Origin: Thermus sediminis
GTDB lineage: Bacteria > Deinococcota > Deinococci > Deinococcales > Thermaceae
NCBI RefSeq assembly: GCF_003426945.1
Contig: NZ_QURO01000004.1
Coordinates: 558,001 to 622,000, forward strand
DNA: 64,000 nt
Reading direction: 5' to 3'
The notes under the pieces are model-generated. The model was not told the origin of the DNA and did no database searches. It saw nothing but the letters and a program-made list of their open reading frames with translations. The position numbers and the translations under genes are program-made. This document shows positions 9,998 to 17,150 of the stretch, one piece after another (within the stretch, counting starts at the first letter, position 1; each line of letters starts with the position of its first letter).

Positions 9998-10858
9998 CTA
10001 GGCCCCCCTCCTGTCAAGGACAGCCTCCAGGGCCCTTTCCTTCCCCTTGGCCTCCAGCATGAGGTCGGCGGGGGCGGGAAGGGCGGCAAGGAGCCTCTCC
10101 CAGTCCTCCCGGGCCACATGGAAGGCGTGGGCCCCGGGGCGCCTTTTGGGGTCTTGGCTAGCCAGGTGGACCTTGGGCCTTCCCCGCCAGGTGGGGAAGG
10201 CCAGGCGGAGGGCCTCTTCCAGGGTAAGCCGTCCGGGATTCAGGGCGTGGTGGAGGGTGTCCACCACCACGGGCACCCCCAGGGCCTCCGCCGCCCTTAA
10301 CACCTCCTCCACGCTCCATAGGCGCTCGTCGCTTTCCAGGGCCAGGTAGCGGAGGATCTCCCCCTCGTCTTGGAGGTTTTCCAGGAAGCGCCGCATAGCC
10401 CTGTCCTTGTCCCCATAGGTCCCGCCCAGGTGGAGGACCAAGACCCCGTCCTCCGCTCCCATGAGGGAGAGGACCCGGGCCGAGTAGCGGAGCTCCGCCA
10501 GGGAGCGCTCCACCACCTGGGGGTCCGGGCTTCCCGGGTTCACGTACTGGCCCGGGTGCATGGAGAGCCGCTGGCCGAGGCCACGGGCCAAGGCCCCAAG
10601 ACGGGCTAGCTCCTCCCCGTGGGCCTGCTCCCAGTCGTAGGGGAAGAGGGGGTGGGAGGCGAAGGGGATGAGATGCTGGCCCACGCGGAAAAGGTGGAAG
10701 CCATGCCCCGGGTTCCAGCGGAGGATCCTCTCCAAGTCCTCTAGGTTCTCCGCCACCTTGGCGCGCGCCCTCTCCTCCGAGAGGAGGGTGAGGCGCAGGG
10801 TGTGGTTGGTGCTGGCCCCCAAGGTGAGGTTTTCGCAGGGGTAGCCCAGCCGGATCAC
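9998..10858 (-). CDS. uvsE: UV damage endonuclease UVDE
   Basis: TIM-barrel metalloenzyme that nicks DNA 5' of UV photoproducts, the entry step of an alternative excision-repair pathway. 286 residues. The opening [35 protein letters not shown] and [18 protein letters not shown] are family hallmarks that carry metal-binding His, Glu and Asp residues; VVDTLHH follows in the second half. Its start overlaps the end of the YceI gene by 4 bp (ATGA). A UV-specific repair enzyme about 2 kb from a rhodopsin/pigment island is notable, though UVDE is widespread in Thermus. Confidence 0.93.
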
Positions 10859-11358
10859 CGCCGGACCTCGGCCTCGAGGAAGACCTCCACCTCGTCCCTC
10901 ACCTCCAGGAAGAGGAAGCGGGGCCGCTCAAACCCCCACTCGGAGAAGCGGGTGGTGAAGCTTCCCCGGAAGCGGTTTTGGGAAAGCTCCCCCAGGATGC
11001 GCACGGGCCTCCTCCTCCCCGCCATCTCCAGCTCCCCCTCCACCACGAACCGCGCCCCTTCCCGAAAGGCCCGCCTGGGGTAGAGGCAGGCCAGGGGGTG
11101 GTCCTTGGCCCTCAGGATCTCCAGGGCCTTCTTGTCCCGCTCGGCGTTGCCCGAGTCCCAGGCCTCTTGCCGCACGCACACCTTACCCGAGGCCCTTTCC
11201 AAGCCGTCCCAGACCACCTCCCCCTGGGCGGTGGGGTTTTTCCCTTCCCAGCTTCCCAGGGGGTAGTAGCCCCGGTAGCGGGCAAGCCCCTCCACGGCGT
11301 AGGGGGCCTGGGCCTGGGCCAAAAGGAGAAAGCACGCCAGGGCCAGGTACTTCCTCAT
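10855..11358 (-). CDS. YceI-like secreted lipid-binding domain protein
   Basis: A 167-residue exported protein. The signal peptide [18 protein letters not shown] is followed by a beta-rich YceI-like domain ([19 protein letters not shown], then [20 protein letters not shown], then [11 protein letters not shown]). YceI proteins are lipocalin-like barrels that bind polyisoprenoids or other amphiphiles in the periplasm; a Thermus homologue is structurally known. Two cysteines, in KVCVRQ and PLACLY, could form a disulfide. It lies between the flavin-reductase-like gene (3-bp gap) and the UV endonuclease gene. Confidence 0.75.
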
Positions 11359-11361
11359 GGC

Positions 11362-11922
11362 CTACTCCAAGCCCTCCCCATGCGCGGAAGGAAGGGGCTC
11401 TCCGCCAGGCCCCCCACGGCGGTCCCGCCGGGATGGGGAAGGAAACCTCCAGCGCTCCCCCAAGGTGGCGAAGTCGCGGAAGCCCAGGAAAAGGATGGGC
11501 CTCTCCTTGGCCTCGGAGGAGCCCTCTACGTGGACCACCTCCCCCAGGAAGAGGGCGTGGTCCCCGTCGGTGGGCCACTCGGCCACCCGCATCTCGTAGA
11601 CGGCAAGGGCCCTCTCGGGGACCAGAGTGTGGGCTAGCCTCCGGGCTGGCCTCAGGGCCACCCCGAGCCGCTTCGCCTTTTCCACCCTCCGCCCCGAAAG
11701 GTACCCGGCCCGCACCACCCAGGCCCGCTCCTCCCAGGGGAGGAAGGCCAAGGCGGCCTCGGAAAGCTCCCGGAGGAGGGTCAGGGTATGGTTCTTCCGG
11801 TCCACAGCAAAGAGGAAGCGGAAGGGCTCCTTGGAGGCGGGCATCCACCAGGCCATGGGCATGAAGTTTCGCCCCACGGCGAGGAGGGCGAGGCGCATGG
11901 GGTAGAAGTAGGCCCGGTACAC
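11362..11922 (-). CDS. Flavin-reductase-like FMN-binding split-barrel protein
   Basis: A 186-residue protein with features of the flavin reductase/flavoredoxin family: VGRNFMPMAWWMPASKEPF near the N-terminus, where the family contacts FMN, and DGDHALFLGEVV at about residues 118-129, a near-invariant family stretch. The last 25 residues are basic and low in complexity. It starts with GTG at 11922, one base after the SDR gene. A partner enzyme cannot be named; it may itself be an oxidoreductase using bound FMN. Confidence 0.8.
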   Translation of the reverse strand: MYRAYFYPMRLALLAVGRNFMPMAWWMPASKEPFRFLFAVDRKNHTLTLLRELSEAALAFLPWEERAWVVRAGYLSGRRVEKAKRLGVALRPARRLAHTLVPERALAVYEMRVAEWPTDGDHALFLGEVVHVEGSSEAKERPILFLGFRDFATLGERWRFPSPSRRDRRGGPGGEPLPSAHGEGLE

Positions 11923-11923
11923 C

Positions 11924-12547
11924 CTAGACCTCCAGGAGGCTGGGCGGGGGTTCCTTGAGCACCCCTTCCAGGACCCTTCGGGCGGCCTCCTCCGGGGAGA
12001 GGGCGCCCTTGGGCGCCCCCCCCAGGGGGGCCCAAAGCCCCGTGGCCACGGCGGGAAGCCTGACCAGGACCAGGTGAACCCCTTCCCGCACGAGCTCTTT
12101 CCGGGCAGCTTCCAGGTAGGCCTCGAGGGCCCCTTTGGCCGCGGCGTAAGGGGCGAAGCCGGGCACCCGCACGTAGGCGGGGTAGGCCCCGAAGAAGACG
12201 GCCCGGGCCCCCTGGCGAAAGCGGGCGTGCTTGAGGAGAAAGGCGGAGCTGAAGAGGTGCGCGGCCATCATCCCCTCCAGGACCTCCCGCCCCACCCCCC
12301 GCACCGGGGCCCTCCCCGCCACCCCCACGGCGTGCAGGAGGAGGTCCAAGGGCCCCACCTCCTCCAGGAGGGCCCTGGCCTCCAGCTCGTCGGTGAGGTC
12401 CGCGGGCAGGGCCCGACCCCCCACGGCCTGGGCTAGCTCCAGAAGAGGCCCGGCCCGCCTCCCGCAGAGGAAAAGCTCCTGGCCCTTCAAAGCCCGGGCC
12501 AGGGCACCGCCCACTCCCCCGGTGGCTCCGGTGATGAGCACCCGCAT
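11924..12547 (-). CDS. Short-chain dehydrogenase/reductase
   Basis: A 207-residue Rossmann-fold SDR. The cofactor motif TGATGGVGGALARAL is at the N-terminus, DLTDELEA marks the adenine-contacting Asp, and the catalytic YAAAK sits near residue 133. The position that normally carries the catalytic serine reads FFGAYPAY with no Ser, so activity may be altered. ATG at 12547 is preferred over a GTG three codons upstream. It heads the leftward operon ending in pdxT and is 78 bp downstream of the rhodopsin gene. Confidence 0.85.
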   Translation of the reverse strand: MRVLITGATGGVGGALARALKGQELFLCGRRAGPLLELAQAVGGRALPADLTDELEARALLEEVGPLDLLLHAVGVAGRAPVRGVGREVLEGMMAAHLFSSAFLLKHARFRQGARAVFFGAYPAYVRVPGFAPYAAAKGALEAYLEAARKELVREGVHLVLVRLPAVATGLWAPLGGAPKGALSPEEAARRVLEGVLKEPPPSLLEV

Positions 12548-12625
12548 GCCTTTCACCCTAGGCCATGGGAGGGGAGGGCTTTGTAGCCGGAAGAGGATAG
12601 GGGCCGCCCCAGGTGGACCCTCCCT

Positions 12626-13408
12626 TCAGGCGGCCTTAGCCTCCACGCCGAAGCCCTCCTCGAGGCTCTTGGCCCTGGCGATGGCGAAGATCAGGAGGCC
12701 GTAGATGGGCTTGGCGATGAGGTCGGCCAGGCTGTAGCCGATCTGGATGGCCACCTCCTGGGCCGCACCCCCAGGGAGCCAGGTGCCCAGGGCGTAGGCG
12801 ATGGGGTAGAAGCCCCAGGACATGAGGAGCACCAGCCGGGTGGCGTTTAGAAGTTCCAGCACCCTAGGCCCAAACCTGGCCTCCCGGATGGTCTGGCCCA
12901 GCTCCACCCAGAGCACATAGAGGATGTAGGCGAAGGGGATGGTGGAGAGCACCCCCCAAAGGGTCCTGGGGCCAGGCTCCGTGCTCACCTCCCCCACGTA
13001 CCCCAGGCCCAGCATGAGGACCGAGGCCACCACCAGCTTGATGGACAGGTTCCACGTACGGGCTGCGGTCAGGCCCAAGACCAGGATGAGTTCCAGAAGG
13101 AGAAGGGGCACGGTGAGGAGCCAGTCGGCGTAGCGGTAGAAGTCGTTGAAGGGCTTTCCCGTGGGCACGTAGACCCCGTCCTGGAACTGGTAGGCCCCGA
13201 TCCAGCTCTCAAAGATGCGCAGGTAGTGGTACCCGGCGATGAAGACGATGAGGGCGGAGAGGTAGAGGGCGATGTGGTACCGGGGGGCCACGTAGCTCCT
13301 CGCCAGGAGGAAGAAGACGAAGGCGGCCAGCATCCCGGCGATGGTGAGGGAGAGCATGTTGAAAACCAGCCAGTATTCTCCGAAGCTGAGCTCTGGAAGC
13401 ATTCTCAC
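12626..13408 (-). CDS. Microbial rhodopsin, proton-pump type
   Basis: A 260-residue seven-helix retinal protein of the proteorhodopsin/xanthorhodopsin group. The helix C motif RYADWLLTVPLLLLE gives Asp95, Thr99 and Glu106, the D-T-E set of outward proton pumps. The Schiff-base lysine is Lys233 in DLIAKPIYG. GYHYLRI (His61) fits the histidine that partners the counterion in this group. Length and residue numbers agree with my memory of the thermophilic rhodopsin of T. thermophilus JL-18. A Gly in helix E (Gly152 in TLWGVLSTIPF) may be the gap that lets a carotenoid antenna approach retinal in xanthorhodopsins. A GTG at 13408 gives 260 residues, but the strong AGGAGGTGAA at 13411-13420 is better spaced for the ATG at 13402. 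It is divergent from the retinal-forming gene blh. Confidence 0.96.
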   Translation of the reverse strand: MRMLPELSFGEYWLVFNMLSLTIAGMLAAFVFFLLARSYVAPRYHIALYLSALIVFIAGYHYLRIFESWIGAYQFQDGVYVPTGKPFNDFYRYADWLLTVPLLLLELILVLGLTAARTWNLSIKLVVASVLMLGLGYVGEVSTEPGPRTLWGVLSTIPFAYILYVLWVELGQTIREARFGPRVLELLNATRLVLLMSWGFYPIAYALGTWLPGGAAQEVAIQIGYSLADLIAKPIYGLLIFAIARAKSLEEGFGVEAKAA

Positions 13409-13500
13409 ACTTCACCTCCTAAGTGGATGGGCCCACCTGGGGCAGGTCCGACTCCATTAGAGGACGGTGAAGAGGCGGCGACCTTTGCCTACACAACACT

Positions 13501-13517
13501 TTGACAGAAGATGTACA
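13501..13517 (+). promoter_or_regulatory. Possible CarH/LitR-type direct-repeat element upstream of blh
   Basis: TTGACA (13501-13506) and TGTACA (13512-13517) recur exactly 11 bp apart in an unusually AT-rich patch between the divergent rhodopsin and blh genes. B12-dependent light sensors of the CarH/LitR family bind 11-bp direct repeats with a TnTACA-like core. The match is exact for one copy and one base off for the other. No regulator gene is visible in the window, so this is a hypothesis. Confidence 0.35.
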
Positions 13518-13561
13518 ATACACCACAAAGGCCCGTTTCCGACGGGAAGGAAGATGGTGGC

Positions 13562-14329
13562 GTGCCCGCCTACTACCTCCTGCCCCTGGTTCTCCTCCCC
13601 GAGACCTGGGCCCTAGGCCTCCTCCTCCTCTCCGCCCTCTTCCTGGGCCTGCCCCATGGGGCCGCCGACCTCCTCGTGGTCCGGAGGCTTGGCCTTCCCC
13701 TCCTCCCCTTCCTCGCCCTCTACCTGGCCTTGGCGGGCCTCCTCCTCGCCCTCCTCTTCCACTACCCGCCCTTTGCCCTCCTCCTCTTCTTGGGGATGGC
13801 CCTCTTCCACTGGGGCCGGGTGGAGGGCAGGGGAGCCTTGGGCTACCTCCGGGCAGGGACGGTTCTCCTCTTCCCCTTCCTCTTCCACCAGGAGGCCATC
13901 CTCCCCTTCCTCCGGGCCTTCGCCGGGGGCTTTAGCCTCCCCCCTTTGGCGGCGGGGACCCTTTGGGGCCTCCTCCTCCTCCTGGCCCTATGGGAAAAGC
14001 CCGGGGCTAGGGCCCTGGGGGACACCCTCCTCCTGGCCCTGGTGGCGGCCCTGGCCCACCCTTACGCCACCCTGGCGGGCTACTTCCTCCTCCAGCACAG
14101 CCTGGATAGCCTCCGCCTGGTGGGCGTCCGGGGCCGGGAGTGGCTCCTCGTGTATGCGGGGACCCTGGGAGGACTCCTCCTCGCCCTCCTCCTCTACCCG
14201 AGGCTTTTGGACCCCCTGGCCGCCTACATGGGGGCCATCTTCGCCCTCACCCTGCCCCACCTCCTGACCATGGAACTCTGGCTGAGGCGGCCTCGGCCTC
14301 CCGCACGATGGCCCGGGACAGGCCGCTGA
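13562..14329 (+). CDS. blh: Beta-carotene 15,15'-dioxygenase, Brp/Blh family (retinal synthesis)
   Basis: Polytopic membrane enzyme that cleaves beta-carotene to retinal, the chromophore of the adjacent rhodopsin. The four family histidine motifs are visible in order: LGLPHGAADLL, LFHWGR, LLQHSLDSL and LTLPHLLTMELW; these His are thought to bind the catalytic iron. About seven to eight hydrophobic helices. The GTG at 13562 is preferred because GGAAGGA lies about 10 bp upstream; an ATG at 13511 is also in frame but would translate the candidate operator and a CCCGT/ACGGG hairpin (13531-13545). The gene ends inside the convergent SDR-DUF2867 gene (83-bp overlap), so its last 15-20 residues (Arg/Pro-rich) may be acquired at a junction. 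Confidence 0.93.
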   Translation: MPAYYLLPLVLLPETWALGLLLLSALFLGLPHGAADLLVVRRLGLPLLPFLALYLALAGLLLALLFHYPPFALLLFLGMALFHWGRVEGRGALGYLRAGTVLLFPFLFHQEAILPFLRAFAGGFSLPPLAAGTLWGLLLLLALWEKPGARALGDTLLLALVAALAHPYATLAGYFLLQHSLDSLRLVGVRGREWLLVYAGTLGGLLLALLLYPRLLDPLAAYMGAIFALTLPHLLTMELWLRRPRPPARWPGTGR

Positions 14330-15695
14330 AGATGGGGCGGTGGAGGGGGTAGAGGAGCCACCAGTAGAGGAGGCCGAAGAGCCCCTTGGGCTCAAAGTAG
14401 GCGGTCTGGAGGAGGAGGCTCCCCTCCCCCTCGGGTATGGCCCGCCACTCCAGCCAAGCCTTTCCAGGAAGGCGCATCTCTGCCCTTAGGCGGAGAAGGC
14501 GATGGGGTTGCACGGCCTCCACCCGCCAGAAGTCCACCGCCTCCCCGGGGAGGAGCTCCGTGGGGTGGCGCCGCCCCCGCCTGAGCCCTGGCCCCCCCAC
14601 CATCCGGTCCAGGAGGCCCCTCAGGGCCCAGGCCCAGCCCCAGACCAGCCAGCCCCTCTCCCCGCCCAAGGAGGCGAAGCTTTGGAAGAGGGCCTCTGGC
14701 GGGGCCTTGCTCCGAAGGACCCGCACCTCGCGGATGAGGCCCTCCCGGTCCTCGAGGCGGTACCCCTCCCCGTGGAGGGCCCCGGACCAACGGGTCTCCA
14801 CCTCTCCCAGGGCGATCCTCTCCAGGGCCAGCTCCACCGCCTTCCGGTAGGGGATGGGCTCCACCCCGGGGAAGAGGGCCTTGGCCCTACGGGTGTCCGC
14901 CACCAAGGGGTGGAGGATCCCCTCCACCAAGGGGAGGGCCAGGCGGTTGGGGATGGGGGTGACCAGGCCCACCCAGAGGGCGGCGAGCCTCGGGGCCAGG
15001 ACGGGCAGGGGCAGGATGACCCGCTTAAGCCCCCGCACCTCGGCGTAGGTCTCCATCATGGCCTTGAAGGTGAGGGGCGGGGCCCCAATCTCCACCACGC
15101 CCATGGGCCCCCGCTCCAGGGCGAGGAGGAGGTAGGCCAGGACGTCCCGGATGGCGATGGGGGAGACGGGGTTCAGGATCCAGCGGGGGGCCACCATGAG
15201 GGGAAGCCTCTCCGTGAGGTAGCGGACCATCTCAAAGCTGGCCGAGCCCGAGCCCACGATGGGCCCGGCCCGGAACTCCGTGGTGGGGAGGAGGGAGCGG
15301 AGGGTCTCCCCCACCCGGGCCCGGCTCTCCAGGTGGGGGGAGGGCCTCCCCTCCCGGGGCAAGAGGCCCCCCAGGTAGACCACGTGCCCGAGCCCCACCT
15401 CCCGGGCCACCCGGGCGAAGGCCTCCACCTGACGCCTTTCCGCCTCCTGGAAGCGGACCTCGGAAAGCATGGCGTGGACCAGGTAGTAGGCGGCCTCCAC
15501 GCCCAAAAGGGCCCGCTTCAGGCTTTCCCCGTCCTCCAGGCTCCCCCGCACCACCTCCACCTGGCCCGCCCAGGGGCGGCCCTGGAGCCGGGCCTCGTCC
15601 CGCACCAGGACCCGCACCCGGTGGCCCCGCTCCAGGAGGCGGGGGACGAGCCTCCCCCCCACGTACCCCGTGGCCCCCGTGACCAGGACCCGCAT
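14247..15695 (-). CDS. SDR-family NAD(P)-binding protein with C-terminal DUF2867 domain
   Basis: A 482-residue two-domain protein. Residues 1 to about 300 form an atypical SDR (TGATGYVGGRLVPRLLERGH, then DVLAYLLLALERG), and the C-terminal part (about 320-460) looks like DUF2867, with WRVEAVQPHRLLRLRAEMRL and LLQTAYFEPKGLFG. Proteins of this architecture often sit near carotenoid or light-regulated genes in Deinococcus-Thermus, but their reaction is unknown to me. It starts 81 bp from the divergent carotenoid-type oxidoreductase and converges on blh. Confidence 0.8.
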   Translation of the reverse strand: MRVLVTGATGYVGGRLVPRLLERGHRVRVLVRDEARLQGRPWAGQVEVVRGSLEDGESLKRALLGVEAAYYLVHAMLSEVRFQEAERRQVEAFARVAREVGLGHVVYLGGLLPREGRPSPHLESRARVGETLRSLLPTTEFRAGPIVGSGSASFEMVRYLTERLPLMVAPRWILNPVSPIAIRDVLAYLLLALERGPMGVVEIGAPPLTFKAMMETYAEVRGLKRVILPLPVLAPRLAALWVGLVTPIPNRLALPLVEGILHPLVADTRRAKALFPGVEPIPYRKAVELALERIALGEVETRWSGALHGEGYRLEDREGLIREVRVLRSKAPPEALFQSFASLGGERGWLVWGWAWALRGLLDRMVGGPGLRRGRRHPTELLPGEAVDFWRVEAVQPHRLLRLRAEMRLPGKAWLEWRAIPEGEGSLLLQTAYFEPKGLFGLLYWWLLYPLHRPIFSGLSRAIVREAEAASARVPWSGGGAG

Positions 15696-15776: not shown

Positions 15777-17150
15777 ATGCGGGCGGTGGTGGTGGGGGCA
15801 GGGATCGGGGGGCTCGTGGCCGCCAGGGCCCTGGGGCGGGCGGGGGTGGAGGTGGTGGTCCTCGAGGCCCACACCTACCCCGGGGGCTTGGCGGGGAGCT
15901 TCCTCCACCGGGGCCACCGCCTGGACGCCGGGGCCACCCTCCTCTCGGGCTTCGCCCCGGAGGCCCCCCTGGGTCTCGTGGCCCGGGCCCTGGGGATGCG
16001 CTTTCCCGTGGAGCCCCTCCCCGAGGGCTTCCCCCTCATGGAGGTCCTCCTCCCCCGGGGGCGGGTGGTGCGCCCCGTGGGGCGGGAGAGGGAGCAGGAG
16101 GCCCAGAGGGACTTCTTCGGCCCCCGGGTCCTCCCCTTCTGGCGGTGGCAGGCGGAGCGGGCAGAGAGGCTTAAAGCCCTCGCCCCCCGCCTCCCCTGGC
16201 CCCCGGAAGGGGGAGAACTTCCCCAGCTCCTGGCCCTGCTTCCCGAGCTTCTTCCCCTCCTTCCCGATCTCTTCCTGAAGGGGGTCCACCGGGCCCCCCA
16301 GGACCCCCATTTCCTCCGCTTCCTGGACGCCCAGCTCCTCATCGCAAGCCAGACAGAAGCGGCCAGGACCTACGCCCTCTACGCCGCCATGGCCCTGGAC
16401 CTGCCCCACCTGGGCCCAGCCCTCGTCCCGGGGGGGGTGGGCCGGGTGGCCGAGGCCCTGGCGGAGGGCCTCGAGGTCCGCTACAAGGCCCGGGCGGAGA
16501 GGCTTCTCCTGAAGGGGGGGCGGGCGATAGGGGTGGAGGTGGCCTACGGGGGGAGGAGGCGGGGGGAAAGGGAGGTGGTGGAGGCCGACCTCTTCGTCCT
16601 GAACATCCCCCCAGAACCCCTCCTCGGCCTTTCCCCCCGGGTGCCCAGGGACGCCTGGGGCGCCTTCGCCGTCCACGGGGTCCTGCCCCTCCCCGTCCCT
16701 CCCCCCTACTACCGGCAGAACGCCCTGGAGAAGCCCTTCGCCTTCCTCTCCTTAAGGCCCGAAGGGGAGAAAACGGTCTTCAGCCTGAGCCTCCACACCC
16801 CCCTCTCCCTCTGGGAAGGGCTTTCCCGGGAGGACTACCTCGCCCAAAAGGCCCGCTGGGGGCGCCTCGCCCTCCGCCTGGGGGAGGCCCTCCTCCCGGG
16901 GCTAGGGGAGGCGGAGTTCCTCCTCTTCGCCACCCCCCTCACCTACCGCCGCTTCGCCGGAAGGGCCTGGGTGGGGGGCTACCCCCAGACCCACCCCTTC
17001 CGCTTCCCCCGGGTCCGCCTCCTCGCCAACGTCTACCGGGTGGGGGAAGGGGTCTTTCCCGGGCAGAGCGTCCCCGCAGCGGCCCTCTCCGGCCTCAGGG
17101 CGGCCCGCCTGGCCCTGGAGAGCCTGGGGCTTGGGCCTGAGGAAATGTAA
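15777..17150 (+). CDS. FAD-dependent carotenoid desaturase/isomerase-like oxidoreductase
   Basis: A 457-residue flavoprotein. It begins with an FAD-binding dinucleotide fold, GAGIGGLVAARALGRAGVEV then VVLEAHTYPGG, as in CrtI/CrtISO/CrtO. Near the C-terminus YRVGEGVFPGQSVPAAALSG matches the second FAD-contacting signature of carotenoid desaturases and isomerases. Whether it desaturates, isomerises or ketolates a carotenoid cannot be told from sequence. Its place 1.4 kb from a beta-carotene cleavage enzyme and 2.4 kb from a rhodopsin makes a pigment role plausible. Confidence 0.8.
   Translation: MRAVVVGAGIGGLVAARALGRAGVEVVVLEAHTYPGGLAGSFLHRGHRLDAGATLLSGFAPEAPLGLVARALGMRFPVEPLPEGFPLMEVLLPRGRVVRPVGREREQEAQRDFFGPRVLPFWRWQAERAERLKALAPRLPWPPEGGELPQLLALLPELLPLLPDLFLKGVHRAPQDPHFLRFLDAQLLIASQTEAARTYALYAAMALDLPHLGPALVPGGVGRVAEALAEGLEVRYKARAERLLLKGGRAIGVEVAYGGRRRGEREVVEADLFVLNIPPEPLLGLSPRVPRDAWGAFAVHGVLPLPVPPPYYRQNALEKPFAFLSLRPEGEKTVFSLSLHTPLSLWEGLSREDYLAQKARWGRLALRLGEALLPGLGEAEFLLFATPLTYRRFAGRAWVGGYPQTHPFRFPRVRLLANVYRVGEGVFPGQSVPAAALSGLRAARLALESLGLGPEEM

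Follow-up and report, generated by a model that had tools for sequence, protein, structure and literature searches.

We analysed a window of 64,000 nucleotides from a 2.03-Mb contig of Thermus sediminis, in which a rhodopsin gene and a blh gene stand side by side. The pair is probably a working retinal-phototrophy cassette, an old resident of Thermus that has undergone at least four deletions and is most likely gated by light through the photoreceptor CarH. The cassette itself is of a known kind, represented by the rhodopsin TR and by the rhodopsin of T. aquaticus Y51MC23 (PMC4605624). The new element is a predicted one: repeats resembling a CarH operator in the spacer between the two genes. 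Our search of the open-access literature turned up neither a description of the deletion scars presented below nor one of a rhodopsin controlled by CarH.

For most bacteria, little is known about what turns on the expression of rhodopsin genes. The prediction made here is that CarH, a photoreceptor whose structure is understood, gates the pump together with the supply of its pigment, and the genus concerned is open to cultivation and genetic work. The T. thermophilus laboratory strains HB8 and HB27 have lost the phototrophy cassette, at a position within a few kb of carH-ldrP, and the cassette-bearing species are thus the right place for testing. The features of the locus are listed in Table 1.

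Table 1. Coordinates, in the window, of the cassette, its candidate control elements and its neighbours
Feature	Coordinates	Strand	Basis and remarks
yceI-like gene and flavin reductase	10855..11922	-	PF04264, PF01613; same block next to carH-ldrP on pTT27
SDR1, short-chain dehydrogenase next to the rhodopsin gene	11924..12556	-	PF00106; same neighbour in 7/7 carriers
Xanthorhodopsin-type light-driven proton pump	12626..13408	-	260 aa; start GTG 13408 or ATG 13402; PF01036, identity to 5AZD, key residues
Candidate rhodopsin -10, TCTAAT	13456..13461	-	Putative; sequence inspection, partial conservation in relatives; no good -35
crtB-promoter-like element, ACYTTTG...ACACTT on the + strand	13479..13501	-	Putative; possible LdrP or promoter site of the rhodopsin gene
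Candidate CarH operator, three tandem 11-bp repeats nnnnTnnACAn	13486..13518	+	TGCCTACACAA CACTTTGACAG AAGATGTACAA
Candidate blh promoter	13501..13529	+	Putative; -35 TTGACA (13501-13506) in repeat 2, 17 nt, -10-like CACAAA (13524-13529)
blh, beta-carotene 15,15'-dioxygenase (Brp/Blh family)	13562..14329	+	255 aa from GTG 13562; frame open up to ATG 13511
Convergent overlap of the blh and SDR2 (DUF2867) 3' ends	14247..14329		Similar overlap in 7/7 cassettes
SDR2, NmrA/DUF2867 protein next to blh	14247..15695	-	PF11066, PF05368; conserved neighbour; homologue on pTT27
FAD oxidoreductase related to carotenoid isomerase/desaturases	15777..17150	+	PF01593; TIGR02730 at 140 bits, under the 587-bit cut-off

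The rhodopsin and Blh proteins

The rhodopsin reading frame matched the PF01036 profile with 139.6 bits (cut-off 24.6). Its best solved match was 5AZD, with 95.8% identity over 260 residues and 11 differences counted on the alignment. The 5AZD protein is TR from T. thermophilus JL-18, a light-driven proton pump (PMC7894484, PMC6713869). The pump residues Asp95, Thr99 and Glu106 and the retinal lysine Lys233 were all present, and the high identity to TR suggests that the T. sediminis protein transports protons outward under light. In xanthorhodopsins, a pocket glycine opens room for a carotenoid antenna. Gly152 of the window rhodopsin aligned with the small residue of the antenna pocket in Kin4B8 (Gly153), and use of such an antenna by the Thermus rhodopsin is possible.

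Blh scored above the cut-offs of both the curated family TIGR03753 (107 bits; cut-off 95.25) and PF15461 (63.4 bits; cut-off 28). Four histidines, invariant in all 35 aligned Brp/Blh members (seven from Thermus and 28 relatives), were kept in the window protein. In all seven Thermus sequences, the family-typical HSxxH was replaced by HSxxS (around residues 179-183 of 255 aa); the fifth histidine of this motif occurs in about 79% of the aligned Brp/Blh family and is thus not universal. The predicted structure was all-helical and confident (pLDDT 93), and a fold search with this model found no solved relative. The blh start shared with relatives was GTG 13562 (VPAYYLLP versus MPSLYLLP). We rejected ATG 13511 as a start, as it lies inside the third operator-like repeat and relatives begin later. 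Thermus Blh is predicted to form retinal from beta-carotene, for whose supply crtB, crtI and a lycopene cyclase gene were all found in the T. sediminis genome.

Among the seven species that carry the pair, dN/dS was 0.11 for the rhodopsin gene, as low as for rpoB (0.10), 0.25 for blh and 0.22-0.29 for flanking genes. An earlier note on this DNA had described a D-T-E proton-pump rhodopsin and a Blh with all four histidine blocks, 100-160 bp apart and forming an intact, functional-looking cassette. The profile matches, the conserved residues and the purifying selection on both genes agreed with this description, as did the spacer (153 bp to GTG 13562, 102 bp to ATG 13511). The same note had called the cassette self-contained, which was too strong, since the beta-carotene that Blh needs comes from a crt cluster lying elsewhere, at a distance of about 400 kb.

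Operator-like repeats and proposed light control

The operator rule for CarH of T. thermophilus requires three 11-bp nnnnTnnACAn repeats in tandem, with the -35 lying within one of them (PMC9304148). The candidate operator between the rhodopsin gene and blh matched all 12 defined bases of this rule and was the sole exact triple match in the T. sediminis genome. The TTGACA -35 fell in repeat 2, as it does in the carH/crtB operators. Over 27 Thermus genomes, the exact triple pattern occurred in 11, once in each, and the pattern read backwards as a control gave no match. Six of these 11 matches were located in the carH/crtB spacer, three between the rhodopsin gene and blh (G000, G005 and G013), and two at another locus in the near-identical pair G011/G012. 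The matches of that pair (G011:C18:21056-21083 and G012:C13:65003-65030) lie upstream of a GGDEF-like frame, possibly a further CarH target. With a matrix trained exclusively on 13 carH/crtB operators, a scan of 206 kb placed the window site first among the non-training sites, at 19.6 bits, and the next unrelated site reached 5.2.

Six of the seven rhodopsin/blh spacers contained at least two exact tandem repeats (shuffle mean 0.028 genomes), these spacers being homologous and thus not independent samples. One backwards-pattern match was also obtained among the seven, so that two-repeat matches alone are not decisive. Many columns of repeats 1 and 2 were invariant across the seven species. The third repeat was degenerate in G019, G022 and G002, and G021 had imperfect repeats only.

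On the blh side, CnACA at the -10 position was invariant in the seven species, the -10 itself being weak. When 280 kb were scanned with a matrix derived from 13 crtB promoters, the crtB-like element on the rhodopsin side ranked among the best sites (12.1 bits); it was weak or absent in three of the seven carrier species. The overlap of the operator with the promoter was clearer on the blh side than over the rhodopsin promoter, and control of the rhodopsin side is less certain than that of the blh side. The best crtB-promoter-like element in the 280 kb was that of G021, between the divergent SDR2 and FAD oxidoreductase genes, which may belong there to the same light regulon.

The proposed regulator is encoded in the same genome. 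The carH gene of T. sediminis (NF052513, 505 bits; cut-off 400) adjoins crtB about 400 kb from the cassette, and in several carriers carH is found on the same contig as the cassette, at about 7-15 kb. All seven carriers have a carH gene, accompanied by a TTGACA within operator repeats that are complete or partial. We also found ldrP, a lycopene cyclase and a P450, which we counted in favour of our overall reading of the cassette. In the dark, AdoB12-bound LitR/CarH keeps crtB and the carH gene itself repressed; light frees CarH, which derepresses itself and ldrP, and LdrP activates crt and further genes (PMC5401885). By analogy, AdoB12-bound CarH would sit in the dark on the three repeats over the blh -35 and shut the divergent region. 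Light would break the B12 Co-C bond, CarH would leave the operator, and blh, the rhodopsin gene and the carotenoid genes would be switched on together, perhaps with help from LdrP at the rhodopsin promoter. Beta-carotene from the crt pathway would then be converted by Blh to retinal, which would fill a TR-type outward proton pump.

The pump and Blh could also work as described if the repeats were not a CarH site in vivo. In that case, expression would be constitutive or under a different regulator, LdrP for example, and promoter elements would account for the TnnACA periodicity. Such a reading draws on the imperfect third repeat of several species, the lack of any perfect repeat in G021 and the crtB-like element in four of the seven carriers. 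We consider it unlikely in view of the genome-wide uniqueness of the site, the empty backwards control, the 11-bp spacing, the placement of TTGACA as in the carH operator and the presence of carH in every carrier. CarH gating remains the interpretation that we prefer.

A fixed site with deletion scars

The rhodopsin-blh pair was recovered in seven of the 27 Thermus species genomes, each time at the same site and with the gene order uvsE-yceI-flavin reductase-SDR1-cassette-SDR2-FAD oxidoreductase. The uvsE gene (UV damage endonuclease; 9998-10858 in the window) belongs to this conserved block and fits a theme of light exposure. On pTT27 of T. thermophilus HB8, the same SDR/flavin-reductase/YceI block adjoins crtB-carH-ldrP and other carotenoid genes.

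Several genomes without the pair retained pieces of it at the cassette site. The last 50-75 or so rhodopsin codons were kept in G001, G003, G014 and G023, together with the end of blh in three of these four, and G006 and G026 kept the last blh codons. The same blh 3' piece is present in T. thermophilus HC11, which HB8 and HB27 match over 901 bp with 99.4-99.6% identity. Breakpoints differed between G014, G001, the pair G003/G023 (with a common blh-side breakpoint) and the group G006/G026/T. thermophilus, indicating at least four independent deletions. Up to the break, the flank in G001 shares 96.6% identity with the locus of G002, where the cassette is intact, and the loss in G001 is thus recent. 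The overlap of blh with the SDR2 gene may be the reason why deletions spare the end of blh. In rpoB trees, carriers and relics were present on both sides of the genus; these trees were unresolved in parts of the genus, and the losses were thus counted from distinct scars and not from the tree alone. The fixed site, the scars and the distribution of carriers and relics together indicate that the cassette is old in Thermus and was lost repeatedly.

The earlier note had rightly stated that rhodopsins are known from only some Thermus, and had named universality combined with synteny as grounds for abandoning its reading: the cassette is far from universal, and it is syntenic in all carriers. The flanks had been taken for two ordinary SDR genes, which does not fit with the position of the same block beside the CarH/LdrP carotenoid genes in HB8. 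The impression that the cassette had been inserted there failed once the SDR-SDR interval was compared across Thermus genomes, given the single site in seven carriers and the remnants at that site in at least six species without the pair.

The patchy distribution could also stem more from gain than from loss, by recent transfer and homologous recombination via the shared flanks. Thermus is naturally competent, which would favour such exchange, and the rhodopsin tree weakly paired G000 with G013, the grouping of G000 with G005 not being rejected (p-AU 0.095). Against this, blh strongly grouped G000 with G005, as rpoB did (100/100), and scars with distinct breakpoints prove that losses occurred. 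We thus regard a history dominated by transfer as distinctly improbable and retain old residence with repeated loss.

Two further explanations fared worse. The rhodopsin gene noted in T. aquaticus Y51MC23 was called a light detector for carotenoid synthesis (PMC4605624), and carotenoid genes are indeed under light regulation. The DTE pump triad, a sequence almost identical to that of a pump whose proton transport has been measured (PMC7894484), the presence in the genome of a gene for a known photoreceptor, CarH, and the lack of a transducer gene among the neighbours examined make this role very unlikely here. Least credible is the insertion of a mobile cassette between the SDR genes, which would account for the absence of the pair from most Thermus species and is contradicted by the one fixed site in seven species and the remnants at that site elsewhere. 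The neighbouring genes that we examined included neither a transposase nor an integrase, and we found no convincing flanking direct repeats and no IS element as a cause of insertion. Searching plasmids for this rhodopsin yielded no record from Thermus.

Comparison with known systems and wider relatives

The closest non-Thermus rhodopsins were those of Fimbriimonadales (62-65%), followed by those of Meiothermus-group genomes. Near related rhodopsins, two-repeat CarH-type sites were found 10 times in 26.6 kb of upstream sequence (four of the 10 in Thermus) and three times in 325 kb of downstream sequence. Several Deinococcota genomes with such sites upstream of the rhodopsin gene also have carH-like genes. 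The upstream repeats of Fimbriimonadales were rejected as CarH sites, these genomes giving only MerR-type matches without a B12 domain. Tentatively, rhodopsin phototrophy may be a direct output of CarH beyond Thermus, in the Meiothermus group and some Chloroflexota, which would join sensor and harvester in one circuit over several phyla; we see in this a possibility suggested by the repeats, and expect less of it than of CarH control within Thermus.

In the rhodopsin-blh pairs of other bacteria, as in Thermus, the pump gene lies beside the gene for the retinal-forming enzyme. Where the non-Thermus loci examined had a blh close by, it was almost always encoded on the strand of the rhodopsin gene, mostly directly downstream of it, whereas the Thermus genes diverge around a shared regulatory region. 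TR, only 11 substitutions away and with the same pump residues, is the nearest known protein, and the papers on it (PMC7894484, PMC6713869) treat the protein and not its neighbourhood or control. Like the candidate operator of the window, the carH/crtB operator of T. thermophilus stands between divergent genes and has three 11-bp TnnACA repeats in tandem, the second of which contains TTGACA; the window site differs in that the genes on either side of it encode a proton pump and a retinal synthase. Compared by gene order, pTT27, which bears the light-inducible gene cluster of T. thermophilus, has the same succession yceI-flavin reductase-SDR1-SDR2-FAD oxidoreductase, genes that may form part of that cluster, with only the last blh codons remaining where the cassette stands in T. 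sediminis.
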